DNA from: Gemmatimonadota bacterium
Lineage (GTDB): Bacteria > Gemmatimonadota > Gemmatimonadetes > Gemmatimonadales > Gemmatimonadaceae
DNA: 32,151 nucleotides
Direction of reading: 5' to 3'
NCBI GenBank assembly: GCA_031127085.1
Contig: JARIEY010000015.1
Location: forward strand, 1-32,151
Positions 928-23,000 of this stretch are shown here, piece by piece (the first letter of the stretch is position 1; each line of letters starts with the position of its first letter). The notes under the pieces were generated by a model, which was not told where the DNA came from, did no database searches, and was given only the letters and a program-made list of their open reading frames with translations. The position numbers and the translations under genes are program-made.

Positions 928-1075
928 CACCACAAAGGCGCGAAGAACACGAAGTGCGCAATCCGAGGCATGCGCCCGGGGCGAGGGCCCTCCGGATCCA
1001 AACGTCGGAATCCGAAAGTCCTCGCCCCGTCAAGTTCTCGCGCCAACCCTTGGTGCTCTTGGTGCCTTCGTGGTG
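928..1075. repeat. Nested inverted-repeat element with 9-nt sub-repeats (array 1)
   Basis: The outer arms are 928-954 and 1048-1075. Read on the minus strand, the distal arm is built of about 9-nt units (CACCACGAAGG, CACCAAGAG, CACCAAGG) and the proximal arm is its imperfect complement. Inside lies a perfect 9-bp hairpin, GGGGCGAGG at 978-986 pairing with CCTCGCCCC at 1020-1028. The element fills most of the gap between glyA and the S15-type gene. I recall similar CACNAAG-type palindromic spacers in other GC-rich phyla, but cannot confirm that here. Confidence 0.75.
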
Positions 1076-1090
1076 AAGCGGAACCGCCGC

Positions 1091-2380
1091 CTACACCGCC
1101 GCCTTCGCTCCCGGATAGAGCGGGAACTCGGCCGCCAGCGCATGCACCTTGGCCTTCACCCGCGCGTGCGTTTCGGCGTCTTCCGGCGCCTGCAACACTT
1201 CGTCGATCAACTCCGCGACGCGCAGCATCTCGGCCGTCCCCATCCCGCGAGTGGTAAGCGCGGGCGTCCCGAGGCGAATTCCGCTCGTCACGAACGGCGA
1301 CTGCGTCTCACGCGGCACGGTGTTCTTGTTCACCGTGATCCCCGCCTTGTCCAGCGCCTGCTCGGCGATCTTGCCCGTCAGGTTCTTGGAACGCAGGTCC
1401 ACCAGCATCAGGTGGTTGTCGGTGCCGCCGCTGACGATGTGGAAACCGCGCGCGCTGAGCGCACCAGCCAACGCCTTGGCGTTGTCCACCACGCGCTGGG
1501 CGTAGGCCTTGAAGTCGGGCTGCAGCGCTTCACCGAACGCCACGGCCTTGGCCGCGATGCAGTGCTCGAGCGGTCCGCCTTGCAGCCCCGGGAAGACGGC
1601 TTTGTCGATCGTCTTCGCGTGCTCGGCCTTGCAGAGAATCAACCCGCCGCGCGGGCCGCGCAGCGTCTTGTGCGTCGTCGTGGTCACGACGTCGGCGTGC
1701 GGAATGGGCGACGGATAGACGCCGGCCGCCACGAGCCCGGCGAAGTGCGCCATGTCGACCATCAGGATCGCCCCCACCTGCTTGGCGATCTCGGCGAACT
1801 TGGCGAAGTCGAGGAATCGCGAGTAGGCCGAGTAGCCGGCGATGATCATCTTCGGCTTGTGCTCGAGCGCCAGCGCCTCGACCTCATTCATGTCGATGAG
1901 GCCGTCTTCGTTCACGCCGTAGGCGACGATCTTGTACATCAGCCCCGAGAAGTTCACCGGCGAGCCGTGCGTCAGGTGCCCGCCCATCGACAGGTTCAGG
2001 CCGAGCACGGTGTCGCCGGGCTTGAGGAACGCCAGGTACACGGCCGCGTTCGCCTGCGCGCCGGCGTGCGGCTGCACGTTGGCGTGGTCGGCGCCGAACA
2101 GCTGCTTCGCGCGGTTGATCGCCAGCTGCTCCGACTTGTCCACCACTTCGCAGCCGCCGTAATACCGCTTGCTCGGCAACCCTTCGGCGTACTTGTTGGT
2201 GAGCGGCGAGCCCAGCGCTTCGAGCACGGCGGGCGAGACGAAGTTCTCGCTGGCGATCAGTTCAAGCCCTTCGTTCTGGCGCGCGATCTCCTCTTCGATG
2301 TAGCCCGCAAGTTCCGGATCCTGCGTGCGCAGCGCCTCACCCGGCGGGCACCGGTCCCACGACATCCACGACTGGCTCAC
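1091..2380 (-). CDS. glyA: Serine hydroxymethyltransferase
   Basis: This PLP enzyme interconverts serine plus tetrahydrofolate with glycine plus 5,10-methylene-THF and is the main C1 entry point; the window also holds purN and purH, which consume formyl-THF. The 429 residues match the usual length. The PLP lysine is K238 in [14 protein letters not shown]. The DMAHFAG segment at 209-215 and [10 protein letters not shown] at 41-50 are diagnostic. AGYSAYSR at 181-188 has Tyr where many homologues carry Gly. The start is a GTG at 2380 that overlaps the rpiB stop as GTGA and has GGAGG about 5 nt upstream, which favours it over an ATG 15 nt further in. It is the third of three overlapping genes (leucine dehydrogenase, rpiB, glyA), so translational coupling is likely. 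Confidence 0.97.
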
Positions 2381-2826
2381 TGCTCCTCCTCGCGCTCGAT
2401 CTTCTCGATGCGGCGTTCGTGCCGGCCGCCCTCGAAGGGCGTCTCCAGCCAGGTCTTGAGAATGGCCACGCCTTCCTCGTCGCTGACGAACCGCGCGGGG
2501 AGGACGAGGACGTTGGCATCGTTATGCTGCCGCGACAGCGCGGCGACTTCCCTGCTCCACACGACCGCGGCCCGCACGTGCGGGTGGCGGTTGGCGGCGT
2601 ACGACATCCCCAGCCCGGTGCCGCAAATCAGCACGCCACGCCGGGCCTGCCCCGTCTCCACCTCTCGCGCGACGGGATGCGCGTAGTCCGCATAGTCCGT
2701 CGACGCCGCGGAATGCGTGCCGACATCCTCCACGTCGAAGCCGAGCCCCGAGAGCGCGACCTTGAGCTTCTCCTTCAGCTCGTAGCCGGCGTGATCGGAC
2801 CCAATGGGAATGCGCTCGACGCTCAT
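2377..2826 (-). CDS. rpiB: Ribose-5-phosphate isomerase B
   Basis: The gene encodes a 149-residue RpiB, which interconverts ribose 5-phosphate and ribulose 5-phosphate in the pentose phosphate pathway. The N-terminus has [14 protein letters not shown] (residues 6-19). The active-site cysteine is C68 in [14 protein letters not shown], and [14 protein letters not shown] is the typical third motif. The ATG at 2826 overlaps the stop of the upstream leucine dehydrogenase as ATGA. A start 15 nt further upstream exists, but the overlap and the family N-terminus favour 2826. Its stop overlaps the glyA start by 4 nt, so the three genes form a tightly coupled block. The sequence does not distinguish ribose from allose-6-phosphate activity. 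Confidence 0.95.
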
Positions 2827-3899
2827 GACTTGCGCGGCCACTGCGGCCAGGTCTTCATCAGGCCGCGCACGGCAGCGATGCGCTGCTCCGCCAGTTTGTC
2901 GGCGGCAAGGTACGTCAGGATGCCCTGCTCCTTGGCGATCTGATAGACGCTGAGCGTCGTGTCAAAGATCTCGTCCGCCTTGCGCAGCGCACGCTCGCGC
3001 GTCCAGCCGGCCACTTCTCCGTAGACGTTGATGACACCGCCGGCGTTGGTCACGAAGTCCGGGCCGTAGAGGATGCCGCGCTTCTCCACAGCTTCGCCGT
3101 GCTTAGCCGGCACCAGCAACTGGTTATTGGCGCCGCCGCAGACGATCTCCACCTGCAGCTTGGGGATCGTGTCGTCGTTGAGCACGGCGCCGAGCGCGCA
3201 CGGGGCAAAGATGTCGCCCTTCGCCGCGTAGATGGCGTCGCCTTCAACGGCGGTGGCACCGAACTCCTGCACCATCGCCTGCACCTTCTCGGGGCGGATG
3301 TCGCTGACGATCAGCCTCGCACCGGCGGTGTGGAGTTCCTTGCAGAGATAGTGCCCCACGTTGCCCACGCCCTGCACGATCACCGTGCGCCCCGTGAGAT
3401 CCGGCTTGCCCCAGCGGAACTGCGCCGACGCCTGGATGGCGCGGAAGACACCGCGCGCCGTCACCGGTGACGGATCGCCCGACTTGGTGGCCAGCCCGGC
3501 CACGTAGTCGGTCTCCATATGCACGAAGTCCATATCGGCAGTGCTCGTCCCCACATCCTCGGCCGTCACGTACCGCCCGCCGAGCGACTCCACAAACCGC
3601 CCGTGCGCACGGAAGATCAGTTCGCGATTGGCCGTGCAATTGTCGCCGATGATCACCGACTTGCCACCGCCCAGATTGAGTCCGGCGACCGCGTTCTTGT
3701 AGGTCATGCCGCGCGCGAGGCGCAACGCGTCGGTGATGGCCTCTTCGTCGCTCGCGTAGTTCCAGAACCGGGTGCCGCCGAGCGCGGGGCCGAGCGTGGT
3801 GTCGTGGATCGCAATGATGCCGCGATAGCCCGCGGACTTGTCCTGACAGAGCACCACCTGTTCGTGGCCCATGTCGGTCATGGTGTCGAAGATGTGCAT
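2823..3899 (-). CDS. Leucine (branched-chain amino acid) dehydrogenase
   Basis: This NAD-dependent amino-acid dehydrogenase of the Glu/Leu/Phe/Val family reversibly deaminates leucine, valine or isoleucine to the oxo acid. The N-terminus MHIFDTMTDMGHEQVVLCQD, followed by IHDTTLGPALGGTR, matches the leucine dehydrogenase start. The catalytic lysines fall at K68 (TYKNA) and K80 (LNLGGGKSVI). VQGVGNVGHYLC is the Rossmann dinucleotide site. Length is 358 residues, normal for the family. The frame stays open upstream to 4028 through a heptamer array that would add HPPSAIC peptide repeats; I treat that as non-coding because homologues begin at MHIF. No Shine-Dalgarno is visible before 3899. Phenylalanine or valine preference cannot be excluded. 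Confidence 0.93.
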   Translation of the reverse strand: MHIFDTMTDMGHEQVVLCQDKSAGYRGIIAIHDTTLGPALGGTRFWNYASDEEAITDALRLARGMTYKNAVAGLNLGGGKSVIIGDNCTANRELIFRAHGRFVESLGGRYVTAEDVGTSTADMDFVHMETDYVAGLATKSGDPSPVTARGVFRAIQASAQFRWGKPDLTGRTVIVQGVGNVGHYLCKELHTAGARLIVSDIRPEKVQAMVQEFGATAVEGDAIYAAKGDIFAPCALGAVLNDDTIPKLQVEIVCGGANNQLLVPAKHGEAVEKRGILYGPDFVTNAGGVINVYGEVAGWTRERALRKADEIFDTTLSVYQIAKEQGILTYLAADKLAEQRIAAVRGLMKTWPQWPRKS

Positions 3900-3915
3900 G
3901 GCTGGGTGGGAGGGC

Positions 3916-4020
3916 GGATGGCCGGACTCAGATGGCGGATGACAGATGGCGGATGGCGGATGGCAGATAGCAGATGGCGGATGGCAGATAGCGGATGGCG
4001 GATGGCAGATGACGGAGCAC
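3916..4020 (+). repeat. RGATGGC heptamer array, about 15 units in strict register (array 2)
   Basis: On the plus strand the sequence divides into 15 consecutive 7-nt units with consensus RGATGGC. Variants are AGATAGC, GGATGAC and one poor unit, CGGACTC. The register never slips. On the minus (sense) strand of leucine dehydrogenase it is GCCATCY, pyrimidine-rich and free of ATG and stop codons. It ends 16 nt before the leucine dehydrogenase start. There are no spacers, so it is not a CRISPR array. Confidence 0.9.
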
Positions 4021-4142
4021 CCAACCAAAGTGCCAGCGTTACTACGCGTTGCTCAAAATCTAAGTTGAGTCACGTGCAACGGACCGCTCCGAACGCTCAG
4101 CAAAATCGGAACAGCGCGTCCGTGAATCCCGCACCGACGCTC
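4021..4142. other. Spacer between heptamer array and acyl-CoA dehydrogenase stop
   Basis: No gene is seen. The stretch is less GC-rich than its surroundings and holds a two-part inverted repeat: CTCAA at 4052-4056 pairs with TTGAG at 4065-4069, flanked by GTTGC at 4048-4052 and GCAAC at 4076-4080. It could be a weak terminator for the acyl-CoA dehydrogenase gene or part of a promoter for leucine dehydrogenase. No convincing -35/-10 pair is visible. Confidence 0.35.
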
Positions 4143-5300
4143 TTATCCCTTCAGCGCCGCGCGACCAATCACGACGCGCTGGATCTCGGACGTGCCTTCG
4201 TAAATCTCTGTGACCTTGGCATCGCGGAACAGCTTCTCCACCGGATAGTCCGTGGTGTAGCCGTAGCCGCCGAAGACCTGAATCGCCTGCGTGGTCACCC
4301 ACATCGCCGTCTCCGTGGCGAACAGCTTGCACATCGACGCATACTCGCCCACCGCCTCGCCGCGGTCCTTGGCGGCGGCCGTCGCGTGAATGAGCGAGCG
4401 CGCCGCGTTGATGCGCGTGGCCATATCGGCAAGCTTGAACTGCACGCCCTGAAATTCGCCGATGGCCTGCCCGAACTGCTGGCGCTCGCGCGCGTACGCC
4501 CGCGCGTGATCGTACGCCGCGCGCGCGATGCCCAAGGCCTGCGTGGCGATCCCGAGCCGCCCCGACTCGAGCGACTGCAGCGCATACACGAAGCCCTGCG
4601 TGGGATCACCCAGCAGTCGGTCGCCGGGCACGCGCATGTTGTCGAAGACCAGCTGCACGGTCTCCGACGCACGCAGCCCCATCTTGTTCTCCTTCTTGCC
4701 CACCTTGAAACCGGGCAAATCAGGCGTGACGATAAAGGCGCCAATCCCCTTGGCCCCTTTGCGCGCGTCGCTCGAGTCGGTGCGCACCATCGCCAACACC
4801 ACGCCGGCGTGGCCCCCGGCCGAAATCCACGCCTTGGTGCCGTTCAGGACCCAATCGTCACCATCGCGCACGGCCTGCGCACGCATCGCGGCGGCGTCAG
4901 AACCGGCATCCGGCTCCGACAGTGCGAAGGCCCCGAGCTTCTCGCCGCGCGCCAGCGGACCCAGGAACTCGCGCCGCTGCGCCTCGCTGCCGTACTTGAG
5001 CAGCATCTGCGTGGGGAGCGAGTTGTGCACGCTCATCAGGACGCCCACCGAGGCGTCCGCCGCCGAAATCTCCTCGAGCGCCAATAAATACGTGGTGGTA
5101 TCGAGGCCGAGTCCGTCGTGCGCCTCGGGAATCATCATCCCCAGAAAGCCGAGCTCCCCGAGTTTGTGCGTCAGCGTCGGATCGAAGTGCGCGTCGCGGT
5201 CCCACTGCGCCGCGTACGGCGTGACCTCGGCCGCGCAAAACTCGCGGGCGGTGTCAACGATAGCACGCTGCGTCTCGGAGAGGTGGAGGAGGGAATTCAT
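4143..5300 (-). CDS. Acyl-CoA dehydrogenase, short-chain/butyryl-CoA type
   Basis: A 385-residue FAD flavoprotein that oxidises acyl-CoA to trans-2-enoyl-CoA, or is a branched-chain acyl-CoA dehydrogenase. Motifs in order: FALSEPDAGSDAAAMRAQA (first family signature), WISAGGHAGVV, QFGQAIGEFQGVQFKLADMA, and QVFGGYGYTTDYPVEKLFRD near the C-terminus. The catalytic base is E368 in EIYEGTSEIQ, the position typical of short-chain enzymes. The start is ATG at 5300. Only two bases separate it from the heptamer array, so there is no Shine-Dalgarno. It lies downstream of HBD and upstream of leucine dehydrogenase, so it could act on butyryl-CoA or on isovaleryl/isobutyryl-CoA derived from leucine or valine. 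Sequence alone does not decide which. Confidence 0.93.
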   Translation of the reverse strand: MNSLLHLSETQRAIVDTAREFCAAEVTPYAAQWDRDAHFDPTLTHKLGELGFLGMMIPEAHDGLGLDTTTYLLALEEISAADASVGVLMSVHNSLPTQMLLKYGSEAQRREFLGPLARGEKLGAFALSEPDAGSDAAAMRAQAVRDGDDWVLNGTKAWISAGGHAGVVLAMVRTDSSDARKGAKGIGAFIVTPDLPGFKVGKKENKMGLRASETVQLVFDNMRVPGDRLLGDPTQGFVYALQSLESGRLGIATQALGIARAAYDHARAYARERQQFGQAIGEFQGVQFKLADMATRINAARSLIHATAAAKDRGEAVGEYASMCKLFATETAMWVTTQAIQVFGGYGYTTDYPVEKLFRDAKVTEIYEGTSEIQRVVIGRAALKG

Positions 5301-5302
5301 GG

Positions 5303-5429
5303 AGATGGCAGAGGGCGGATGGGTGGGGGCAGATGGCAGATGGCAGGAAGCTGACGTCGGATGTCAGAGAGCAGATGGCTGATGGCAGGCATCCGCCACC
5401 CGCCATCCGCTATCTGCCATCTGCCATCA
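5303..5429. repeat. Two-armed RGATGGC heptamer array filling the HBD-acyl-CoA dehydrogenase gap (array 3)
   Basis: Twelve heptamers in unbroken register run from 5303 to 5386 (AGATGGC, AGAGGGC, GGATGGG and so on). After AGGC the same repeat continues in the opposite orientation from 5391 to 5429 (ATCCGCC, ACCCGCC, ATCCGCT, ATCTGCC). The two arms are complementary and can fold into a hairpin. The array begins 2 nt from the acyl-CoA dehydrogenase ATG and reaches the HBD stop codon (5427-5429), so it is the whole intergenic spacer. Confidence 0.9.
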
Positions 5430-6272
5430 GTACGAGTAGAACCCCCGCCCCGCCTTGCGCCCCAGCCACCCCTGCGCCACGTACTTCCGCAGCAGCGGGC
5501 ACGGACGGTACTTGGGATCGCCCAGCCCCTTGTGCATCACCTCGAGGATCGCGAGGCAAGTGTCGAGTCCAATGAAATCAGCGAGCGTCAGCGGCCCCAT
5601 CGGGTGGTTCATGCCGAGCTTCATCACCTGATCGATTGCCTCGGGCGTGCCGACGCCCTCCATCACGCAGTACACCGCCTCGTTGATCATCGGCAGCAGG
5701 ATGCGGTTGGCCACGAAGCCCGGGTAGTCGTTCACCTCTACCGGCGTCTTGCCCACACCCTTGGCGAGGGCGAGCGTGCGATCCATCGTCTCCTGGCTTG
5801 TTGCCAAGCCACGGATCACCTCGACCAGTTGCATCACCGGCACGGGGTTCATGAAGTGCATCCCGATCACCGCCTCTGGGCGCTTCACGCGGCCGGCGAT
5901 CTCGGTGATGGAGATGGAGCTCGTGTTCGTCGCGAGGATGGCGCCCTCCGGGGCCAGCCGATCGATCTCGCCGAACAGCTTGTGCTTGAGGTCCACATTT
6001 TCCGTCGCCGCCTCAATCACGAACTGCGCGTCGGCCACGGCATCGAGCGACGTCGATGTCGCGATGCGCGCCATCGCATCGGCCTTGGCCGCCTCGTCGA
6101 GCGCGCCCTTCTTGACCTGACGGTCGAGATTCTTCTCAATCGTCGCCTTGGCCTTGTCGAGCGCGCCCTGGCTGATGTCGATCATCACCACGTCGTGTCC
6201 GGCCACCGCGCTCACGTGCACAATGCCGTTCCCCATCTGCCCTGCGCCGATTACCGCGATCCGATCGGACAT
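5427..6272 (-). CDS. hbd: 3-hydroxybutyryl-CoA dehydrogenase
   Basis: This NAD(P)-dependent enzyme interconverts 3-hydroxybutyryl-CoA and acetoacetyl-CoA. The 281 residues match the single-domain bacterial HBD length. The Rossmann loop GAGQMGNGI is at 9-17. NTSS is at 116-119, the catalytic His is H139 in [11 protein letters not shown], and E151 completes the dyad. [19 protein letters not shown] and the C-terminal [11 protein letters not shown] are typical. The start is ATG at 6272 with AGGGAG 7 nt upstream; a longer upstream reading adds a non-homologous N-terminus and is rejected. The CPBP gene stop lies 1 nt before this start, so the two are co-transcribed. The thiolase that supplies its substrate is two genes upstream. 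Confidence 0.96.
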
Positions 6273-6273
6273 G

Positions 6274-7194
6274 CTATGGCTCCCTGCGGCCGCGCGGCCG
6301 CCAGTCGATTGCGAAGCGCCATCCGCGGCGGTGGACCCCGATCCACCCGGCACGAACGGACAGAAGAAAACTAACGCCCAACATTCCAACGGCAGCGGCG
6401 GCGCCAGCCTCGGGCCCCCAAGCGCCGCCCGTCAGCCAATCGGGCCCTGCCGAGACCGTGCGGTACATGGGCTGCGGCACGGCCAGCCCGCTCACCGGCG
6501 TATGAAAGACCGCCACCTGCACGAAGTTGTACGCAAAGTGCGCCAGCCACGCGGCCCACAGCGAGTCGAGCGCGAGGCGCACGATGGCGAGGAAGACCCC
6601 GGCGAGCGCCACCAGCACAATGGCCTGCGCGGTTACGCCGGGGTTCAGTAGATGCAGCAGCGCGAACAGCACGCTCGTCCACGTGACGGCCGCTCGCACC
6701 CCCCACCGGCGATGCACCAGCGTGAACGCATACCCGCGCAGCACAAGCTCTTCGGTCAGCGCGGCGGGCAACAGGATGCCGGCCGCGAGCCCGGCCCCTT
6801 GCCACCAACTGCCGGCCGCGGCGCCTTCCATACGCAGCGCGCCCACCCAGAGCAGCGCCCCGGCTGGCACCGCGATGGCAAACCACCCGGAAAATAACCC
6901 GCCGAATAGCGGCCAGCGGCCCAGCGCGTCGGTGCCGAGCCGTGTCGTCTGGCTCCACGATTCGCCGAAAATCCGCACCGTCACGGCAGTGGCCGCCAAC
7001 ATCGCCAAACACGTCATCAGCTCAGCGCTCGGCGCGCGCACGTTGAGCGCGAGGTTCACACCGCGCACGAGCGGGTAGATCACCGCCGGCACGACGATCG
7101 CCGACACGATGATCAGGCCCAGAAAGGCCGCCAGACGTGCAACGACGCGCCCCGTCGCCAGAGGTTCAGCGGAGACGGGGCGCGTCGTAGTCAT
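6274..7194 (-). CDS. CPBP-family intramembrane metalloprotease (Rce1/CAAX-like)
   Basis: A 306-residue polytopic membrane protein with about eight hydrophobic segments. The three CPBP (ABI) motifs are present: EELVLRG with E148, E149 and R153, FALLHLLN with H181, and WLAHFAYNF with H219. These residues form the glutamate/histidine active site of the Rce1 family. The start is ATG at 7194, 7 nt after the thiolase stop; a longer upstream reading overlaps the thiolase gene and is rejected. Its stop is 1 nt from the HBD start. A membrane protease embedded between two acetoacetyl-CoA enzymes is odd. Its substrate cannot be inferred from sequence; bacterial relatives are often linked to peptide maturation or immunity. 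Confidence 0.9.
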
Positions 7195-7201
7195 CGGGGG
7201 C

Positions 7202-8407
7202 TCAGACCCGCTCGACCGAAAGCGCCACGGCATTGCCGCCGCCGAGACAGAGCGTCGCCAGCCCGCGGTGGAGGCCGCGATCCTGCAGCGCGTAGAGCAG
7301 CGTCGTGAGAATGCGCGCGCCACTACCACCGATCGGGTGGCCCAGTGCGATGGCGCCGCCGTTCACGTTGACGCGATCCCAGTCCCAGCCCAGCCCGTCG
7401 CCGTCGGCCAGCGCCTGTGCGGCGAAGGCCTCGTTGGCCTCAATGAGGTCGTAGTCGCCAATCTTGGTGCAAGTCTTCTTCATCAGGTTCTGCACGGCAA
7501 GGATCGGCGCAAAGAACAGGTCCTGCGGATCGCCGCCACCCGAGGCGTAGCCCGTGATGCGCGCCAGAATCGGCAGGCCGTTGGCCTTCGCATACTCCTC
7601 ATCGGCCACGACCAGTGCGGCCGCGCCATCGTTGAGTCCGGGCGCGTTGCCGGCCGTGACCGTGAGTTCGTCCGGCTTCATGTCCTTGGGCGCATCACCC
7701 GGGAAGGCCGGGCGCAGCTTGGCGAGCGCCTCGATGGTCGTGTCCTTGCGCGGGCTCTCGTCGGTCTCGACGATGGTCGCCCCCTTCTTGCCCGCAATCT
7801 CCACCTTGGCGATCTCGGCGGCGAACTTCCCCGCCTCAATGGCGGCCACCGCCTTCATATGCGAGTGGTAGGCGAACTCGTCCTGCCGCGCGCGCGTGAT
7901 GCCGGCCTTCTTCGCCGTGTACTCCGCGTGTCCGCCCATGTGGCGGTTGTAGAACGCACACCAGAGCCCGTCCTTGATGAGCGCGTCGTGCATCGTCTGC
8001 GCGCCGAACTTGATGCCGTTGCGCATACCGAAGACCAGATGCGGCGCGCTCGACATTGACTCCTGGCCACCCGCGACCAGCAGTTGCTCGTCGCCCGCGC
8101 GGATGGCCTGCGCGGCCAGCATCACAGCCTGCAGCCCTGACCCGCACACCTTGTTGATGGTCATCGCGGGGACGGCAGCGGGGATCCCCGCCTTGATCAT
8201 CGCCTGCCGCGCAGGGGCCTGCCCCACGCCGGCCTGCAGCACGTTGCCCATGATCACTTCGCCAATCTCGGCGGGATCAATCTTGGCACGCTCCATGGCG
8301 GCCTTGATGGCGATGGCGCCAAGTTCCGGCGCCTGCAGGGTGGAGAGCGAGCCCAGAAAGCGGCCAATGGGCGTGCGGGCCGCGGAGACGATGACGGGAG
8401 TTGGCAT
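7202..8407 (-). CDS. Acetyl-CoA acetyltransferase (thiolase)
   Basis: This is a thiolase II of 401 residues that condenses two acetyl-CoA to acetoacetyl-CoA, or cleaves it in fatty-acid breakdown. The acyl-accepting cysteine is C88 in [26 protein letters not shown] with H357, and C387 in LCLGGGNA complete the active site. The start is [15 protein letters not shown] at 8407, where homologues start; a longer upstream reading is rejected. No clear Shine-Dalgarno is visible. Ten nucleotides upstream is a short pyrimidine-rich TCTACCN repeat. It heads the thiolase, CPBP protease, HBD, acyl-CoA dehydrogenase series. No enoyl-CoA hydratase is in the window, so the pathway must be completed elsewhere. 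Confidence 0.95.
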
Positions 8408-8416
8408 GAAACCGCC

Positions 8417-8440
8417 GAGGGTAGACGGTAGAGGGTAAAT
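8417..8440 (-). repeat. Short TCTACCN heptamer repeat upstream of thiolase (array 7)
   Basis: On the minus strand the bases read as three consecutive 7-nt units: TTACCC with its preceding T, TCTACCG and TCTACCC. They end about 10 nt before the thiolase ATG. The unit differs from the RGATGGC family, but the placement and the pyrimidine-rich sense strand are the same. It is short and could be chance. Confidence 0.5.
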
Positions 8441-8517
8441 GACAGCGCGCGGATTCGGGGGCCCGATGAAAGCTAGCGTGAGGGCGCGGCCGGGGGCCAC
8501 AGCGCGCGCGGCGCCCC

Positions 8518-8529
8518 CTCGCATGCGAG
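8518..8529. promoter_or_regulatory. 12-bp perfect palindrome in the spacer upstream of thiolase
   Basis: CTCGCATGCGAG is a perfect palindrome in the 156-bp gap between the M29-like gene stop (8564) and the thiolase start (8407). It could be an operator or part of a hairpin. No partner site was found, so the call is tentative. Confidence 0.25.
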
Positions 8530-8563
8530 TCGCTCGCCGAACGCCACCGCCCGCAAGCCGGCG

Positions 8564-9715
8564 CTAAAACCGCTCGACGAACTGCCCCTCACGCATCAGC
8601 GCGAGCGGCGGCTCGTCCGCAAAAGTCAGGTCGACCACGACCGGCACAACATCCGGCTGAGTCTCCTTCACATACACGCGGTCGATGTGGATCACGGCGT
8701 CTGGCGACGAGAAGGCGCTTGGCCCCACCTGTCCGCCAAAGTGCTCGCTGCGCCCGAAGGCGAGGTGAAGCCCCAGCTTCTCGTCGAGCAGCACCTCGCC
8801 CACGGCCTGCACGCCAAAGGCCGCCAGGACGCCAAGTCCCAGCTCAGCCAGGTTGGCATAGGCGGGTTCTTTGGCAAGCAACTCGGCCTCGCGATCAGCA
8901 GCGACCCCCTGCGACAGCACGCGCACGGCCCGATTGCCCGCGATTTCATAGCGCACCACTTCGGTGCCGAACTGCACGGGGAGCACGCCCGCCGAGCGAC
9001 TCGGGTCGCCCTCGCGCTCGCCTTCGTAGGGCACGATATACGCCTCGCCCGACGGCAGGTTGCCCGCGACCCCGCGCTGAGGAAGCAACCCGCCCGACGC
9101 GTGCCCTGTGCGATGCCGCAAGTCGAGGTGCAGGCGGTCCTCGCCACCCGAATGATGGAACACGAGGTCGGCGCCCGTCGCACGGTCGAGCAGATCCTTG
9201 AGGAGGTTCACCCGGCGATTGACCTCGGTGTAGTCCACTCGCAGTGCAGGGATCATCTCCGCACGGAAGCCGGGCATCGTCGCCGCGCGCATCGGGTGCG
9301 CGCGCGCCGCCACCTTGAGCGGCGCGGTGGAACTGAAGCGCGTCAGCGCCATCAGCATGGGGGTCGTGTCGAAGATTTCCGCCATCGGGCACGCGCCCGA
9401 CGGGTCAAGATGATCGGCGTGCTGCGGCAGCGCTCCGCCGGTGTAGAGCCAGCACCGGTCCGGCAGGTCGCCGTTGTTCGTGTGCACATTGGGATACAGC
9501 AAAAGCTGCGTGCGGTATCCCACGGCATCCGACTGCCCCTCGAGCATCGCCACCCAGTCCGCAGCGATGCGGCGGCGGGCCGCCCACGCGGCATCGTCCG
9601 GCACGCGGTCATCGGGGAGATCAATCATCACGCCCAACCGGCGGTCATCGGTGGTGGGCGCGAAGACGCGCTGGACAAGGGCGGCGAGTTCGGCCGCGGT
9701 CAACGAGTCGTGCAC
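8564..9715 (-). CDS. M29 (aminopeptidase T)-like metallopeptidase
   Basis: The gene encodes 383 residues. I see a resemblance to the M29 aminopeptidase family rather than a certain match. NLPSGEAYIVPYEGE recalls the M29 NLPTGEV segment with its metal-binding Glu. GEVLLDEKLGLHLAFGRSEHFGG recalls the segment carrying a second Glu and a His. IHIDRVYVK near residue 350 occupies the place of the HxD ligand motif. The N-terminal half (1-200) is poorly recognisable. The start is GTG at 9715, 13 nt after the previous gene; GGAAGG lies only 3 nt upstream, so a start slightly elsewhere is possible. It has no signal peptide, so it is probably cytoplasmic. The alternative is a DUF-type protein that has lost peptidase activity. 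Confidence 0.55.
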   Translation of the reverse strand: MHDSLTAAELAALVQRVFAPTTDDRRLGVMIDLPDDRVPDDAAWAARRRIAADWVAMLEGQSDAVGYRTQLLLYPNVHTNNGDLPDRCWLYTGGALPQHADHLDPSGACPMAEIFDTTPMLMALTRFSSTAPLKVAARAHPMRAATMPGFRAEMIPALRVDYTEVNRRVNLLKDLLDRATGADLVFHHSGGEDRLHLDLRHRTGHASGGLLPQRGVAGNLPSGEAYIVPYEGEREGDPSRSAGVLPVQFGTEVVRYEIAGNRAVRVLSQGVAADREAELLAKEPAYANLAELGLGVLAAFGVQAVGEVLLDEKLGLHLAFGRSEHFGGQVGPSAFSSPDAVIHIDRVYVKETQPDVVPVVVDLTFADEPPLALMREGQFVERF

Positions 9716-9728
9716 GGGCCTTCCGTAG

Positions 9729-10280
9729 CTAGGGTGCGCAGCACTTCGGATAGATCACCAGCGTCACGCGCTTCTCCCGCGTCCCCGTGGCCACTGCTGC
9801 GGCCGCGAGCGCGGTCAGCCACACGGGCGCCGCGCGCCGCCACGCGGAGTAGTGGCGCTGCCGCTCTTTGGTTGCTGGGGTCATCGGCCAACCGGCGTAG
9901 CGGAACGCGACCGCGCTGACCACCGTCGACACCGCGACGTTTGCCCCCCAGTCACTCGCCTGCCCGTTGGTGCGCGACACCAGCCATGCCCCCGTGCCGG
10001 CCCCCAGGCCACCACCCGCCCACAACAGGGGCGTGAGCGCGCGCACGAGTTGGGGGTCGTCAACCTCGCCGCCGTGACCGCGAATCAGATACGCCACGCC
10101 CGCCGCGGCCACGAGCCCACCCTCGGCGCCCAACGTGAACGCCACCGCTCCGGCGGCGAGTTCCCCTGCGACGCGCGTCGGCAAGATCCGCGGCGTGACC
10201 GTCCGCTGCCCAGCGGCCGCGCTTCCACAAACGGCAAGCGCCAGTACGGTTCGGCGCAGACTTGTGATAACGGCGAACAT
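9729..10280 (-). CDS. Small secreted/membrane glycine-rich protein, unknown function
   Basis: I do not recognise a named family. The protein has 183 residues. A signal peptide (MFAVITSLRRTVLALAVCGS, followed by AAAGQ) precedes RVAGELAAGAVAFTLGAEGG. Two or three Gly/Ala-rich segments could be membrane-spanning or a glycine zipper, and the tail is basic with a CC pair. The start at 10280 has a strong GGAGG 6 nt upstream, better than an upstream start at 10304. The RVAGE motif and overall layout recur in the minus-strand gene at 11255-11803, suggesting two diverged copies flanking the Uma2 gene. It is upstream of the M29-like gene on the same strand. Confidence 0.7.
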   Translation of the reverse strand: MFAVITSLRRTVLALAVCGSAAAGQRTVTPRILPTRVAGELAAGAVAFTLGAEGGLVAAAGVAYLIRGHGGEVDDPQLVRALTPLLWAGGGLGAGTGAWLVSRTNGQASDWGANVAVSTVVSAVAFRYAGWPMTPATKERQRHYSAWRRAAPVWLTALAAAAVATGTREKRVTLVIYPKCCAP

Positions 10281-10317
10281 CTCATCCTCCGCGGAACCAC
10301 GCACGCCTCCTGAGAGA

Positions 10318-10387
10318 ATCTGCCATCAGCCACCCGCCATCCGCCATCCGCCATCTGACATCTGACATCTGCCACCCGCCATCCGCA
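10318..10387 (+). repeat. Heptamer array ATCYGCC (complement of RGATGGC), 10 units (array 4)
   Basis: Ten consecutive 7-nt units run in strict register: ATCTGCC, ATCAGCC, ACCCGCC, ATCCGCC twice, ATCTGAC twice, ATCTGCC, ACCCGCC, ATCCGCA. This is the reverse complement of the unit at 3916-4020, so it is the third locus of the same family. It occupies the divergent spacer between the 183-residue protein gene (-) and Uma2 (+); its pyrimidine-rich strand is the Uma2 sense strand. Confidence 0.9.
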
Positions 10388-10490
10388 TCGTTTTATCCCT
10401 CTCCGCACTGGAACGATGACGCAGTCCCAACGGCGGAGGCCCATAATGCGCCATGCCGAGTTGCATTCCTCCCGCCGCCGAGCGTACCGT

Positions 10491-13746: not shown

Positions 13747-13768
13747 TCGGGGACAGGAAAAAGGGCCA

Positions 13769-13798
13769 GTGGAACACGACGATGTGGAACACGACGAT
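13769..13798. repeat. Perfect 15-bp tandem duplication in the thrS leader
   Basis: GTGGAACACGACGAT occurs at 13769-13783 and again, with no mismatch, at 13784-13798. It lies 23 nt upstream of the thrS start. It is either a recent duplication or a doubled binding site. Confidence 0.8.
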
Positions 13799-13831
13799 CA
13801 CGAGCGGACCGGCTGCGTGCGGGCTCGCGCG

Positions 13832-13987
13832 CTAATGCTCGGCCAACGCCTGCAGCAGACTGGGGACGCGGTCGGCAAATGCAAAGAAGCAGACGATCCC
13901 CACGAGCAGCAGAATCGTGAACACCACCCACGGCGCAATCGCCTTGGGGGTGGCGACAGCTTTGGGATTTGTCAGCGGTTCGAGCAT
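13832..13987 (-). CDS. 51-residue single-span membrane protein, unknown
   Basis: A short reading frame starting at ATG 13987 gives MLEPLTNPKAVATPKAIAPW, a hydrophobic span at about residues 20-38, then a short amphipathic tail ending LLQALAEH. The composition is that of a real small membrane protein: a Pro/Lys-rich soluble start, one span, and a positive residue next to it. No Shine-Dalgarno is seen and no family is recognised. It lies upstream of thrS on the same strand and is divergent from valS, so it may share the valS-thrS promoter region. Longer readings of the same frame extend into the valS gene and are rejected. Confidence 0.5.
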   Translation of the reverse strand: MLEPLTNPKAVATPKAIAPWVVFTILLLVGIVCFFAFADRVPSLLQALAEH

Positions 13988-14122
13988 GCGGACCGGGCCA
14001 AGGCGTGAACGCACCGCAGGGCGGCGCGTGAGGACGGAAGATGCCCCAACATAGCAGATCGACGGGGGCGAACGACAGATGCGGCGCACCGCAACCGCTA
14101 CCGTTAGAGGCAAGAAGGCCGG

Positions 14123-14128
14123 TATCTT
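14123..14128 (+). promoter_or_regulatory. Candidate -10 element for valS
   Basis: TATCTT lies 9 nt upstream of the valS ATG at 14138. If transcription starts at the usual distance, the message would be nearly leaderless, which fits the absence of a Shine-Dalgarno. No matching -35 hexamer is clear. Confidence 0.35.
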
Positions 14129-14137
14129 TAGAGCGAC

Positions 14138-16891
14138 ATGACCAATCCGACCCCTTCCGACATCCCCGCGACCTACGACGCGGGCGCCACTGAACGCGCC
14201 CTGTACGAGGCCTGGGAGGCCGCCGGCCTGTTCCACGCCGAGGCGGCCAACAGCTCACGCACCGGTGGTGCGCGCGACCCCTTCACCATCGTCATTCCGC
14301 CCCCGAACGTGACGGCCGTGCTCCACGTCGGACACGGGCTCAACAACTCGGTGCAGGACGTCATCGTCCGCTGGCGCCGGATGGCGGGCGACGAAGCGCT
14401 GTGGGTGCCAGGCACCGACCACGCCGGCATTGCCACGCAGAATGTCGTGGAGAAGCTGATCGCGCAGGAAGGCAAGACGCGCTTTGACCTGGGTCGCGAG
14501 CCGTTCGTGGCGCGCACGGCCGACTTCGTGCGCGAGACGGGCGGCGTGATCCTGCAGCAGCTGCGGGCCATCGGCGCCTCCGCCGACTGGCGCCGCACCG
14601 CCTACACGCTGTCCCCCGAGCTTTCGCGCGCCGTGCGCGAGGCGTTCGTGCGTTTGTACGAGAAGGGGCTGATCTACCGCGGCTATCGCGTGATCCACTG
14701 GTGCCCGCGCTGCCTCACGTCGCTCTCCGACGAGGAAGCCGAGTTCAAGGAGACGTACGGCAAGCTGCATCACGTGCGCTACCCGCTTGCCGATGATCCC
14801 ACGCGTTCGATCACCGTGGCCACCACGCGCCCGGAGACGATGCTCGGCGACGTCGCGGTGGCCGTGCACCCGGATGACGAACGCTATCAGGCGCTCATCG
14901 GCACCGACCTTCTGCTCCCCATCGCGAACGTGCGCATACCGATCGTCGCCGACTCTTTTGTGGACAAGGAGTTCGGCACGGGGATGGTGAAGATCACGCC
15001 GGCCCACGACCCCAACGACTTTGAGGCGGGCAAGCGGCTGGGGCTCGCCATGCCGGTGGTGATCACGCCCGACGGCCACATGGGCGAGGTGCACGAGGCC
15101 GAGGGCCGCGTCCCCGCCTCGCTGCGCGGCCTCGAACGTTTTGACGCCCGCAAAAAGATCGTGAAGATGCTCGAGGCGCAGGGCTTCCTCGACAAGATCG
15201 ACCAGCACCATCACAGCGTGCGGCATTGCTACCGCTGCCACACCGTGGTGGAGCCGCGCCTCAGCGACCAGTGGTTCGTGAAGATGGCACCGCTCGCCAA
15301 ACCCGCGCTCGACGCGGTGCAGACGGGCAAAGTGCGCATCGTGCCGGAACGCTGGAACGCCGTCTACGTGAACTGGATGGAGGGGATCCGCGACTGGAAC
15401 ATCTCCCGCCAGCTCTGGTGGGGGCACCGCATTCCGGTCTGGCACTGCCCCTGCGGGCATAAGGCCGCGCTCCGCGAAGATCCCACCGGCGGCTGCCCGC
15501 AGTGCGGCGGCGCGTGGACGCAGGACGAAGACGTGCTCGACACCTGGTTCTCGTCCTGGCTCTGGCCCATCAGCACGCTGGGCTGGCCCGACAAGGACAA
15601 CGGGCCGGACCTCAAGGCGTTCTATCCCACCGACGTGCTCGTCACCGCCCCGGAGATCCTGTTCTTCTGGGTGGCGCGGATGATCATGGCCGGGCTCGAG
15701 TTCAAGGGCGAAGTGCCGTTCCACACGGTGTATCTGCACGGCACCGTGCGCGATATGCAGCATCGCAAGATGTCCAAGTCGCTGGGCAACGGCATCGATC
15801 CTTTGGAGGTCGTGGAGAAGTTCGGCGCCGATGCGCTGCGCTGGACGATGATCGCCGGCATGGGGCTTGGTGTGGACGTGCTGCTCGATCCGGAAGATCT
15901 GGAAAAGTCGTTCGCTCCCGGCCGCAACTTTGCCACCAAGCTGTGGAACATCGGCCGCTTCCTCCTGATGCAGGTGGGGGGCGAGCCGGTGCGCGCGCTT
16001 GGCGAACTGGACCGTACCAAGTTCCGCAGCGCCGACCACTGGATCATCAATCGGCTGGCCGATGCCGTGGCCGACTGCGACACCGCGCTCGGTCCGGTGC
16101 GGCCGCCCAATGGCACGTGGCCGGAATCGCAGCGACAGGCCGGGCTGCGCCTCGACGCGTACGCCGAAGCGGCGCGGCGCTTCCTCTGGAACGACCTCGC
16201 CGACTGGTACGTGGAGTCGAGCAAGAACCGACTCACCGAGGCCGGCGACGATCGTGAGATCGCACGCGCTTTGCTGGTGCACTGCTTCGACCAGGGCCTG
16301 CGGCTGCTGCATCCCATCATGCCGTTCATCACTGAAACGCTCTGGCAGAAGCTGCCAAGCCATCAGGACGGCGCGTGGCTGGTGAAGGCCGGGTGGCCGA
16401 CGGCCCCCGCGCGCAGCGAGGCGGCGCAAGAGTTCGAGGTCGTGAAGGAGGTGATCACGGCCGTGCGGCAGATCCGCAACGATTATGTGCTCCCCCCCAC
16501 GCAGCCGCTGACCGCGCACCTGGCGGGCAATGCCACGGCCGCGGCCATCGCGCTCGCCGAGGCGGGCTTTGTGCAGCGTATGTGCCGCGCGGAACTCGTG
16601 GACGGCGGGGCACCCACCGGTGCGGCCGCGCACGCGCTGCTCGGCGGCGGCCTTGAAGTCGTGATCCCTCTCGAGGGGATCGTGGATGTCGCCAAGGAGC
16701 GCGGCAAGCTGGAGACCGAACTCGCGCAGTTGGACAAGCAACTGACCGGGCTGCGCGGGCGGTTGGCCAACCCCGGGTTCACCGGCAAGGCACCGGCCGC
16801 GGTCATTGAGGCCGAACGTGCGAAGGAAGCTGAGTGGGCGGCGCGTTCAGAGTTGCTGCGGGGCAAGATCAAGGCGATGGGCGGGGCGTGA
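14138..16891 (+). CDS. valS: Valine-tRNA ligase
   Basis: 917 residues, full length for the class I enzyme that charges tRNA-Val. The HIGH-type motif is HVGH at 63-66 in PPPNVTAVLHVGHGLNN. KMSKS is at 544-548. A CPRC segment and a CPCG...CPQCGG zinc-ribbon-like region (about 430-460) lie in the editing/connecting domains. TTRPETMLGD marks the editing domain. The C-terminal coiled coil (from about 825, IVDVAKERGKLETELAQLDK) binds the tRNA. The stop overlaps the ATG of the next gene as TGATG. It opens a run of overlapping genes to purN, so a housekeeping operon is likely. Confidence 0.97.
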   Translation: MTNPTPSDIPATYDAGATERALYEAWEAAGLFHAEAANSSRTGGARDPFTIVIPPPNVTAVLHVGHGLNNSVQDVIVRWRRMAGDEALWVPGTDHAGIATQNVVEKLIAQEGKTRFDLGREPFVARTADFVRETGGVILQQLRAIGASADWRRTAYTLSPELSRAVREAFVRLYEKGLIYRGYRVIHWCPRCLTSLSDEEAEFKETYGKLHHVRYPLADDPTRSITVATTRPETMLGDVAVAVHPDDERYQALIGTDLLLPIANVRIPIVADSFVDKEFGTGMVKITPAHDPNDFEAGKRLGLAMPVVITPDGHMGEVHEAEGRVPASLRGLERFDARKKIVKMLEAQGFLDKIDQHHHSVRHCYRCHTVVEPRLSDQWFVKMAPLAKPALDAVQTGKVRIVPERWNAVYVNWMEGIRDWNISRQLWWGHRIPVWHCPCGHKAALREDPTGGCPQCGGAWTQDEDVLDTWFSSWLWPISTLGWPDKDNGPDLKAFYPTDVLVTAPEILFFWVARMIMAGLEFKGEVPFHTVYLHGTVRDMQHRKMSKSLGNGIDPLEVVEKFGADALRWTMIAGMGLGVDVLLDPEDLEKSFAPGRNFATKLWNIGRFLLMQVGGEPVRALGELDRTKFRSADHWIINRLADAVADCDTALGPVRPPNGTWPESQRQAGLRLDAYAEAARRFLWNDLADWYVESSKNRLTEAGDDREIARALLVHCFDQGLRLLHPIMPFITETLWQKLPSHQDGAWLVKAGWPTAPARSEAAQEFEVVKEVITAVRQIRNDYVLPPTQPLTAHLAGNATAAAIALAEAGFVQRMCRAELVDGGAPTGAAAHALLGGGLEVVIPLEGIVDVAKERGKLETELAQLDKQLTGLRGRLANPGFTGKAPAAVIEAERAKEAEWAARSELLRGKIKAMGGA

Positions 16892-18315
16892 TGCCGCACC
16901 GCGCCCCCGGACGCGCCGTATCCCGCGCAAGATGTGGCATCGCATGCGCCGTGCTCGTGGCGGCGTATGCGGGCGCGTGCGCGTCGCCGGGAGCCCCACC
17001 GGGCGGTCCGCAGGACAAGGCCGTGCCCGTGATTCTCAAGGTGGAGCCCGAGTCCGGGGCGATCAACGTGAAGGCCAAGAGCGTGATCGTCCGCTTCAAC
17101 GAGGTGGTGAGCGAGCGGCCGCGGGTGGGCAACTCGCTGGCCGATATCGTGGTGCTCTCGCCGTCGGACGGGGCGGCACGTGTGGACTGGAATCGTTCCA
17201 GCATTACCGTGCGACCACGCAAGGGATTTCGCCCGAACACCGCCTACTCGCTGACCATCATGCCGGGGCTCGCCGATCTCGCCGGCAACCCCACGACGAA
17301 GGCGCGGACGTTCGTGTTCGGCACGGGCGCCACCATCCCGCGCGGCGTGGTGGCGGGCGCCGTGTTCGACTGGACGACGCTCAAGCCGGCGAGTGACGCG
17401 CACGTGGAGGCACGACTCGGCGGGGACACCACGTTCAGGTGGATCGCGCGAGCCGATACCCTGGGATGGTACAAGCTCCCGTTCATGCCGCCCGGCAGCT
17501 ACATCGTGCGCTCGTTCATCGATGCCAACACCAATGGCAAGCTCGAGCCACGAGAACTCTGGGACAGCGTGACCGTGGGCGTCACCGACTCGATGCGCGT
17601 CGATATGTACGCCTTCACGCACGACACGCTCGGGCCGCGCGTGGTGGGCGCTGACGTCAAGGACTCGGTGACGCTGCGACTCACGTTTGATCGGCCGCTG
17701 GTGCTGAATCCGCAGCTCACGGCGCAGCAGGTGGAAGTACGGCGCGCCGATTCCAGCCTGGTGCGCGTGCTCTCGGTCACGCGCGCCGCGCTCTTCGACT
17801 CGCTGGCGCGCGTGCGCGAGGCGGCGGCCAAGGATTCCGCGCAACGCGCCGACACCAGCGCGGCCGGTCGCACGGCGCGCGCGCGCGCCGACACCGCGCG
17901 GATGATGGCGCAGCGCGACTCCATCGAACGCGCACGCATCGAGGCCCGCCGGGCATCGCGCGACACGGTGCCCAAGATTCCGCCGCCGGTCCCCACGCGG
18001 ATGGCGATTGCGTCGGAATACATCGCCGTGCTCGAAGAGCCGCTCGTACCGGGGTCGTATCGGGTCACGGTGAAGGACGCGGTCAACCCTTCGCTCGCCA
18101 AACGCACGAGCGAGCGGACCTTCACCAAGGCGAAGTCGGCGGAGAAGAAGGGCGACGCCGACAAGAAGGTAGAGGGCGACGCGAAGGCGGCGCAGCCGGC
18201 CGCCAAGCCCGCCGTCGTGCCACCGGCACCCAAGCCGGATCCCTCCGCGCCGGCCGCCAAGCCCGCCGTCGTTCCGCCGGCCGCGATGCCGCCGGTCAAG
18301 CCGCCGGCCAAATGA
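16891..18315 (+). CDS. Ig-like (Big_5-type) domain lipoprotein
   Basis: 474 residues. A lipoprotein signal is present, with the lipidated Cys at C30 in AYAGACASPG. The mature start SPGAPPGGPQDK followed by a Ser/Gly/Asn-rich NVKAKSVIVRFNEVV strand set is characteristic of Ig-like lipoproteins of the FCB group. There is one Ig-like domain at about 45-140, then a carboxypeptidase-regulatory-like beta region (SYIVRSFIDANTNGKLEPRE), an Ala/Arg/Asp-rich helical linker near 315-360, and a low-complexity AAKPAVVPPA repeat tail. The start at 16891 overlaps the valS stop; an earlier start in the same frame lies inside valS and is rejected. It is probably an envelope protein of unknown role. Position between valS and selA suggests operon membership, not shared function. 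Confidence 0.85.
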   Translation: MPHRAPGRAVSRARCGIACAVLVAAYAGACASPGAPPGGPQDKAVPVILKVEPESGAINVKAKSVIVRFNEVVSERPRVGNSLADIVVLSPSDGAARVDWNRSSITVRPRKGFRPNTAYSLTIMPGLADLAGNPTTKARTFVFGTGATIPRGVVAGAVFDWTTLKPASDAHVEARLGGDTTFRWIARADTLGWYKLPFMPPGSYIVRSFIDANTNGKLEPRELWDSVTVGVTDSMRVDMYAFTHDTLGPRVVGADVKDSVTLRLTFDRPLVLNPQLTAQQVEVRRADSSLVRVLSVTRAALFDSLARVREAAAKDSAQRADTSAAGRTARARADTARMMAQRDSIERARIEARRASRDTVPKIPPPVPTRMAIASEYIAVLEEPLVPGSYRVTVKDAVNPSLAKRTSERTFTKAKSAEKKGDADKKVEGDAKAAQPAAKPAVVPPAPKPDPSAPAAKPAVVPPAAMPPVKPPAK

Positions 18316-20364: not shown

Positions 20365-20365
20365 C

Positions 20366-21136: not shown

Positions 21137-21203
21137 CGAATCGCAGGTCGCAATCCCAGATCCCCATCCTGAATCGCAATCCGAATTCCCAATCCTCAAT
21201 CGC
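21137..21203 (-). repeat. GATT-family array with alternating 7- and 6-nt units (13-nt period; array 5)
   Basis: On the minus strand, GATT or a one-base variant (GAAT, GATG, GATC, GACC) recurs ten times with spacings alternating 7, 6, 7, 6 and so on. This gives a 13-nt higher-order period such as GATTGAGGATTGG. On the plus (sense) strand it is pyrimidine-rich. It ends 3 nt before the purH start and replaces a Shine-Dalgarno. It is unrelated in sequence to the RGATGGC arrays. Confidence 0.75.
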
Positions 21204-22739: not shown

Positions 22740-22758
22740 TGCGCGCGGCCCCTTTCGA

Positions 22759-22992
22759 GGGAAGGGGAAGGGAGCAGGGTGTGGGAAGGGGAAGGGCAAG
22801 GGAGTTGGACGCGGATGCGGGGGTGGGGGTGGCGGCTCTGCGCGTGAGCGGCAACCCATCTGAACCACCCTCGGCTCGTCGGGTACGAGCGTAGTTGCAT
22901 CGCTGGCAATCCCCCTGCCCCCACACCCTTCCCACACCCTGTTCCCTTCCCCTTCCCAAGAACAGCCCACACCCTGCTCCCTTCCCCTTCCC
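22759..22992. repeat. GGGAAG-family hexamer array with a 24-bp perfect inverted repeat (array 6)
   Basis: The left block (22759-22836) reads in 6-nt units on the plus strand: GGGAAG, GGGAAG, GGAGCA, GGGTGT, then GGGAAG twice and later GGATGC and GGGGGT. The right block (22907-22992) is the same repeat inverted. A 24-nt segment at 22759-22782 is the perfect reverse complement of 22969-22992; 22934-22957 is a near-copy with one difference. Both G-rich blocks have at least four runs of three Gs, so G-quadruplexes are possible on opposite strands. It fills the purH to DUF2723 spacer. Between the blocks is a 6-bp hairpin, GCTCGT/ACGAGC at 22874-22890. Confidence 0.9.
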
Positions 22993-22994
22993 AC

Positions 22995-23000
22995 TATATT
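22995..23000 (+). promoter_or_regulatory. Candidate -10 element for the DUF2723 gene
   Basis: TATATT lies directly after the right arm of the hexamer array and 38 nt before the ATG at 23039. No -35 consensus is present at the usual distance; that position lies inside the repeat. Confidence 0.4.

Follow-up and report, generated by a model that had tools for sequence, protein, structure and literature searches.

Short tandem repeats of unrelated sequence recur between the genes of a bacterium of the family Gemmatimonadaceae (phylum Gemmatimonadota), and the question they raise is why they should all obey one strand rule. The stretch examined, called the window from here on, is 32,151 nt of DNA (assembly GCA_031127085.1, contig JARIEY010000015.1, positions 1 to 32,151 of the forward strand), a contig of a 3.15-Mb, 241-contig, 82%-complete genome (G000). 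An initial annotation of the window had described seven spacers with such repeats, all but one pyrimidine-rich on the sense strand next to the downstream gene, and had proposed a shared process behind them, possibly a module of the 5′ untranslated region (5′ UTR). Our comparison of this genome with its relatives suggests another answer. Many of the arrays may be arms, or surviving single arms, of RNA hairpins anchored at stop codons and acting at the 3′ ends of genes, either like terminators or by blocking exonucleases. We hold this view, which is drawn from sequence comparison, with about even confidence.

We sampled 57 stretches of G000 (682 kb including the window), of which 40 were picked by contig number and 16 for a 7-nt repeat pattern, together with two relatives from the same genus (G001 and G003), one from another genus of the family (G012) and only 80 kb of G028. 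Pooled counts refer to five samples, two of G000 plus G001, G003 and G012, with G028 excluded. Gene borders came from our own caller, which combines a codon score with dynamic programming and whose calls in the window include the genes named by Pfam. An array is a short-period tandem repeat with a unit of 5–16 nt (score of at least 13 for the list of the window), and dinucleotide shuffles served as controls. Inverted repeats (IRs) were counted at a score of at least 16 in spacers of 40–600 nt (n = 675, five samples). Arrays in spacers above 600 nt were excluded from the placement test and from the list of single-armed arrays; polarity counts carry no such limit, and in these an array between convergent genes was scored once for each side within 15 nt. 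Placement was compared with random placement within the same spacers over 2000 draws, which sets a floor of 0.0005 for p. In E. coli, 58 spacers between annotated genes gave 0 arrays and 1 IR of score at least 16, too few for calibrating polarity.

Arrays and inverted repeats at gene ends

Spacers of the five samples held 202 arrays compared with 2.4 in shuffles. There were 38 and 40 in the two samples of G000, 61 in G001, 38 in G003 and 25 in G012, where the shuffle means were 1.0, 0.4, 0.6, 0.4 and 0; the G028 sample held 2. Arrays occupied 42 of 127 convergent spacers, 93 of 503 codirectional spacers and 22 of 168 divergent spacers. They crowd at stop codons. In spacers of at most 600 nt, 75 of the 162 pooled arrays with a neighbor on the stop side lay within 5 nt of a stop compared with 40.7 under random placement (p = 0.0005). 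Starts gave no such excess (24 of 135 within 5 nt, 23.6 under random placement). In the contig-number sample of G000 alone, 13 of 28 arrays were at stops (5.6 expected) and 2 of 25 at starts (3.2 expected). The start proximity read from the window is thus not borne out in the samples, where the enrichment sits at stops.

Composition depends on which gene end is near. Of the 105 pooled arrays no more than 15 nt from a stop, 74 had a purine-rich and 16 a pyrimidine-rich sense strand; of the 41 equally close to a start, 35 were pyrimidine-rich on that strand and 3 were purine-rich. The initial annotation had expected arrays to lie closer to start codons than chance would place them and to be pyrimidine-rich there. 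Only the second was seen. The strand rule as first worded holds on the start side, but the arrays crowd where its purine-rich complement applies, at stops. The broader claim that several unrelated families share one polarity is borne out by these counts and by the IRs described below. Some of the start-side bias is background, because array-free spacers of the genus are also pyrimidine-rich before starts (sense purine fraction of 0.42–0.44 over 30 nt; 0.50 in G012). After stops, the sense purine fraction was 0.50–0.53 in array-free spacers compared with 0.60–0.65 where arrays or IRs were present.

These data bear on the idea that pyrimidine-rich arrays before starts are unstructured ribosome landing sites that work without a Shine-Dalgarno (SD) motif. 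The composition of start-side arrays fits this idea, as does the finding that an SD-like motif preceded 1 of the 38 genes whose upstream array is no more than 15 nt away, compared with 169 of 571 genes with array-free spacers (Fisher p = 6e-5). The missing SD motif of the initial annotation is therefore real for genes behind arrays, but most array-free genes lack one anyway. By contrast, arrays are not enriched at starts, both arrays and IRs are most frequent between convergent genes, the genus background before starts is similarly pyrimidine-rich, and the array between purH and the PF11028 gene lies upstream of a putative promoter box. We consider translation through such landing sites an unlikely explanation, and the placement tests and convergent spacers rule out a start-anchored 5′-UTR module as the general cause that had been proposed. 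As a separate observation, SD-like motifs occur at only ~30% of starts with array-free upstream spacers, and the sampled genomes may rely little on SD pairing.

IRs were found in 120 of the 675 spacers, and one shuffle of each spacer gave 1. They were present in 44 of 102 convergent, 63 of 416 codirectional and 13 of 157 divergent spacers (chi-square p = 5e-13). The 5′ arm was purine-rich (R-first) in 94 of the 120 and neutral in 21, and only 5 began with the pyrimidine-rich arm (Y-first). An IR reads alike on both strands; therefore one polarity yields purines after stops and pyrimidines before starts. The 60 IRs that overlap arrays were R-first in 52 cases, neutral in 7 and Y-first in 1, compared with 42, 14 and 4 for the other 60. 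Those with tandem arms in convergent spacers were R-first in 17 cases, neutral in 1 and never Y-first. Convergent spacers contain no start and share the polarity, so protection of start codons cannot be its sole cause.

The stop-side distance of tandem-armed IRs had a median of 3 nt (n = 71), and 20 of these distances were negative because the arm begins inside or just before the stop codon. The median distance on the start side was 30 nt (n = 49). The stop codon can itself open the array, as seen with the TAG of TAGACGG units in G003 and the TGA of TGATGGCAGATGGC-like arrays in several species. Taken alone, tandem-armed IRs lay within 5 nt of a stop in 34 of 53 cases compared with 25.0 under random placement (maximum 34), a weaker result than that of the test with all arrays, and within 5 nt of a start in 9 of 42 cases compared with 13.1. 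Whole-genome pattern counts of the 7-nt family, overlapping matches included, gave R-first to Y-first ratios of 16/0 in G000, 29/3 in G001, 13/0 in G005, 9/2 in G007 and 15/0 in G012.

Hairpins at orthologous spacers

The spacer between the genes of a 3-hydroxyacyl-CoA dehydrogenase (3HCDH) and an acyl-CoA dehydrogenase allowed one site to be followed between species. G009 was omitted from this comparison, its best match being 43% identical. In 9 of 10 species a repeat hairpin stands directly after the 3HCDH stop, and its units differ (TGGCAGA, TGGGAGA, TGGTAGA, CGGTGGA and TAGACGG, among others); the weakest is that of G005, with a score of 14. Arm complementarity was 24.8 when both arms came from one species and 11.7 when they came from different species; the permutation p of 5e-5 is the lowest that 20000 permutations can give. 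The arms end in mixed C and T, with no U-tract.

A similar comparison was made at the spacer between purH and the PF11028 gene, where 7 of 10 species have an IR of score at least 14. Arm complementarity in those 7 was 31.6 within species compared with 11.75 across species (p = 2e-4). For G003 and G006, where no downstream ATG could be located, a stretch of fixed length was used. In place of the GGGAAGG family, G003 has a two-armed element of CACGGAG type in this spacer, present in two near-copies. By eye, a TATATT-like box in variant forms follows the array in ten loci, about 45 nt before the start in the 8 of 10 where the start was located. The array would therefore lie upstream of a likely promoter and outside the 5′ UTR at this locus. 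A scan of window positions 1–16000 for the sigma-70 consensus found 0 promoters compared with 1.8 in shuffles, which may mean that a different type of promoter is in use.

The other flank of purH behaves differently. The comparison of the upstream array is confined to the 6 of 10 orthologous loci where the purH start could be located; in these six species a single-armed array of the 13-nt type adjoins the purH ATG, as judged by eye. This array fits the 5′-UTR reading best of all.

Together, IRs and arrays favor convergent spacers, sit at stops and keep their structure while the sequence changes, which lends indirect support to a 3′-end reading. A bolder version, which we put forward tentatively and would not call probable, is that the architecture is inherited while the repeat words are rewritten in both arms in each species. 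The result would be a sequence-free boundary hairpin with one 3′-end function across phyla.

A candidate 3′-end element and its rivals

In the mechanism we propose, a purine-rich 5′ arm, which tends to begin at or within a few bases of the upstream gene's stop codon and in some cases holds that codon in its first unit, is followed by its pyrimidine-rich complement as the 3′ arm. The hairpin would act in the RNA as a 3′-end element of the upstream gene, and presumably between cistrons in operons. Hybrids of pyrimidine RNA with purine DNA (rY:dR) are weak, and that of the 3′ arm could take the place of a U-tract. Slippage and arm copying would enlarge arrays and change units, and selection would retain the hairpin and its polarity. 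Terminators with an A-tract and a U-tract have a similar polarity; in window positions 1–16000, U-tract terminator-like sites showed no excess (8 compared with 7.9 in shuffles).

Much of this could also arise without function. Slippage would make the arrays in unconstrained spacers, snap-back or template switching would copy an arm into its inverse, and weak purifying selection would remove orientations that harm neighboring genes, since purines on the sense strand ahead of a start would bring in ATG and SD-like words. We regard such a purely mutational origin as possible but on the whole doubtful. It accounts well for the speed at which a given site changes its unit and length, for the absence of the hairpin in G004, for the many single-armed arrays and even for matched arms, which arm copying would also give. 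It accounts less well for a polarity that is no looser between convergent genes, which have no start in need of protection, for stop anchoring above random placement and for a hairpin kept at the same spacer in 9 of 10 species.

A number of observations weigh against the stop-anchored hairpin. Some concern the orthologous sites. At the 3HCDH spacer the own partner arm was the best match in 7 of 9 rows and 8 of 9 columns rather than in all, and the species are not independent. The next start follows the hairpin at this site by only a few dozen nt, and in G004 the spacer is 9 nt long and without a hairpin; full termination at the site is therefore unlikely and the element is dispensable. At the purH–PF11028 spacer, G007, G002 and G009 have no IR above their own shuffles and the best IR of G003 is not purine-first, and the array at the purH start described above is single-armed.

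Others concern the coupling of arrays, hairpins and stops. No detected array overlaps 60 of the 120 IRs, and 46 arrays in codirectional spacers of at most 600 nt have no IR of score 14. In codirectional spacers the stop was the nearer gene end for only 70 of 120 arrays (p = 0.08), and closeness to the stop is not evident in the G000 sample G000sel (12 of 25) or in G001 (18 of 39). Single arms are polar too (on the stop side 18 purine-rich, 7 pyrimidine-rich and 1 neutral; on the start side 15 pyrimidine-rich, 3 purine-rich and 2 neutral), so hairpin formation may not underlie the polarity rule. The polarity itself fails in some relatives: whole-genome ratios of R-first to Y-first were 0/1 in G006, 0/2 in G022 and 1/2 in G055, and G053, from another family of the same order, has 1 R-first and 6 Y-first with a CTGATGG-like unit that is weakly purine-rich. 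Single-armed arrays may be decayed hairpins or a separate class; like the reversed polarity of G053, they are unexplained by the hairpin. As a test of selection on the RNA, sense-strand mismatches in codirectional spacers were G.U in 142 and A.C in 112 cases (p = 0.07, suggestive, from 254 informative mismatches in 63 elements), compared with 71 and 78 in the convergent control, and folding energy did not differ between strands, the sense strand being the more stable in 38 of 63 elements (p = 0.25). Finally, gene borders rest on a home-made caller, which for the cross-phylum loci described next was trained on single 8-kb loci, and 57 of 69 arrays listed among those loci lack a partner arm scoring 14 at a distance of up to 220 nt.

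The cross-phylum set was built on GGCAGATGGCAGATGGCAGA, an exact 20-mer of the 7-nt family, which occurs in many phyla among the matches listed (80 loci of 113 stretches). Judged by record titles, the listed phyla include Cyanobacteria, Chloroflexi, Verrucomicrobia, Acidobacteria, Planctomycetes, Bacteroidetes and Proteobacteria, and Gemmatimonas records carry the same repeats. By our caller, 60 of the 81 listed arrays are in spacers, 13 at gene edges and 8 in coding sequence. The nearest gene edge was 5′ of the purine strand in 47 of the 60 listed spacer arrays (26 stops and 21 starts, p = 1e-5). The listed codirectional arrays were sense in 19 cases and antisense in 19. Among the 69 listed arrays examined for a partner arm, it was 3′ in 11 and 5′ in 1; because it mostly was not found, many arrays of this set are single-armed.

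A further candidate explanation is mobile palindromes spread by a transposase, either repetitive extragenic palindromic (REP) elements and bacterial interspersed mosaic elements (BIMEs) or miniature inverted-repeat transposable elements (MITEs). The repeats are dispersed, intergenic and inverted, the listed 20-mer crosses phyla, and between purH and the PF11028 gene of G003 one two-armed element is present as two near-copies. REP and BIME sequences are imperfect intergenic or intercistronic palindromes near the 3′ ends of genes, with roles in mRNA 3′ stability and in termination, and they have a fixed consensus and a REP-associated tyrosine transposase (RAYT). The arms described here are instead degenerate tandem repeats of variable length whose units differ between species at the same site. 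PF01797 (Y1 transposase), which we take to be the RAYT domain, was not matched in G000 (82% complete) and was found in 2 of 11 genomes of the genus and in 5 of 14 controls. We consider a mobile origin very unlikely, and a REP/RAYT origin was set aside as there is no transposase match in the 82%-complete G000. One genome of the same genus, G010, has a Y1 transposase match with one internal TAG.

The repeats of the window and their published relatives

Six of the seven spacers of the initial annotation hold repeat structure, and the gene names it gave agree with Pfam (ELFV dehydrogenase, acyl-CoA dehydrogenase, thiolase, purH and PF11028, the last of which is presumably its DUF2723). Numbered along the window, array 1 has the minus strand as sense. 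It is formed by the IR CACCACRAAGGC...GCCTTYGTGGTG (score 17), the pyrimidine (3′) arm of which, at 928–954, is purine-rich on the plus strand. The purine (5′) arm that pairs with it, at 1049–1075, is 15 nt after the stop at 1091 of an SHMT gene (by Pfam), and the next start is about 85 nt from the array (928–1075) if the ATG at 842, chosen by eye, is used; the caller placed it at 767. Array 2 is a single-armed 7-nt array of GCCATCY units at 3917–4016 (minus strand, sense pyrimidine-rich), 17 nt before the start of an ELFV (Leu/Glu-type) dehydrogenase gene. Array 3, two-armed and 7-nt (5299–5428, minus strand; tandem repeat 5303–5428), spans the whole spacer between the stop of the 3HCDH gene and the start of the acyl-CoA dehydrogenase gene. 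The TGA stop opens its first unit, and the arms at 5299–5335 and 5390–5427 form an IR of score 22.5. At the fourth site, 8417–8440 (minus strand), three degenerate ACCGTCT-like 7-mers before the thiolase start fall below the array threshold of 13; autocorrelation over 8405–8445 was 0.53 at 7 nt and 0.56 at 14 nt.

On the plus strand, array 5 (10318–10386) is a single-armed 7-nt array between divergent genes, pyrimidine-rich on that strand and 37 nt from the start of the left gene. Array 6 (21139–21195) is a weakly pyrimidine-rich array with a 13-nt (6 + 7) period, 11 nt before purH. Arrays 2, 4 and 6 are thus start-proximal, and array 3 abuts a stop at one end and a start at the other. Arrays 1, 3 and 6 had been called two-armed; this holds for the first two, but array 6 (21137–21203) is single-armed, with no IR of score 14, and array 7 (22759–22992), left out of that set, is two-armed. 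The purine arm of array 7, GGGAAGGGGAAGGGAGCAGGGTGTGG (22759–22835), contains GGG runs and is separated from the purH stop by 19 nt. Of the pyrimidine arm (22897–22992), the part at 22897–22962 pairs with 22754–22818 (IR score 34.5), and what remains is built of the same words as far as the TATATT box; about 45 nt lie between the end of this arm and the next start. The putative –10-type promoter box of the PF11028 gene, TATATTGAAGGGTTA (22995–23009), is 3′ of the array, and by eye its variants occur in ten orthologous spacers.

That the families are unrelated was confirmed, and more are found elsewhere in the genome, such as an 11-nt family, ACAACAGAGAG; the G000 samples contain GGCAGAT, ACAACAGAGAG, GGATTGCGATT, GGGAAGG and other families. 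No Rfam family matched the window at the gathering score. Two further repeats were noted. One is a 27-nt tandem repeat (GCCGGCCGCCAAGCCCGCC...) at 18195–18309, at the 3′ end of the called gene 16951–18315, which probably encodes a low-complexity protein tail. The other is a perfect 15-nt duplication, GTGGAACACGACGAT, at 13769–13798, 22 nt upstream of the gene 11800–13746 and outside the families described.

The strand rule had been thought to be without a named description. This is not correct, because Rehm et al. (2015; PMC4692102) state the same rule of strand and distance for GGGNATC heptamers, which form intergenic short tandem repeats in Xanthomonas and Nostoc. The G-rich strand lies there within 50 bp of a stop as the sense strand or of a start as the antisense strand. 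The repeats are nearer the 5′ neighbor in any orientation and rare between divergent genes, there are 70 and 75 convergent inverted pairs in two Xanthomonas genomes, and length and sequence vary widely between the two. The repeats are interpreted there as quadruplexes, with function left open. Our arrays resemble this class in having the purine strand sense after stops and antisense before starts (74 vs. 16 of 105 and 35 vs. 3 of 41), in preferring the 5′ neighbor (47 of the 60 listed spacer arrays of the 20-mer) and in their convergent inverted pairs (94 of 120 IRs R-first, 52 of 60 with tandem arms). They differ in that the text considered deals with one G-rich heptamer type, whereas here several unrelated unit families follow one rule, and in that it contains no comparison of arms across species and no stop-anchored hairpin model, both of which are features here. 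The GGGNATC unit is absent from the G000 families seen; GGGAATC arrays occur in G012.

This likeness raises the possibility that the purine strand folds into a G-quadruplex here too. The shared placement and strand rule and the GGG runs at 22759–22835 fit with this. However, families with single G or GG runs (ACAACAGAGAG, TAGACGG, GGCAGAT and ACGACAGAGT) have the same architecture, so a three-tetrad quadruplex cannot be the common cause. We consider this explanation highly improbable, the families without GGG runs largely excluding it.

A second relative is the TAACTGA array of marine Beggiatoaceae (MacGregor, 2015; PMC4679880). That article describes heptamers in spacers of several phyla with SD motifs rare nearby, mostly directed toward and close to starts, some overlapping stop codons, and proposes a translational role. 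Compared with our arrays, the system as described there has a single unit sequence, a start-directed orientation and one inverted pair only.

Degenerate heptamer arrays in spacers are also known as the short tandemly repeated repetitive (STRR) sequences of cyanobacteria. A literature search on Gemmatimonas with repeats or terminators found nothing relevant, and in the two articles and the literature listings consulted we met no account of a single genome whose unrelated unit families all follow one rule, nor of matched replacement of both arms at orthologous sites. What is new here is that several unrelated families obey one rule and that the repeat words turn over while the architecture stays.

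If the stop-anchored hairpin is the correct explanation, the repeats of Xanthomonas, Nostoc, Beggiatoaceae and the present genomes, so far described separately and poorly explained, would become one class with a testable stop-codon rule. A hairpin of RNA type would be kept at its site while its sequence is replaced, which would provide a route to studying how the arms stay matched. It would also supply a candidate 3′-end system to a GC-rich bacterium whose scanned stretch (window positions 1–16000) showed no evident U-tract terminators.

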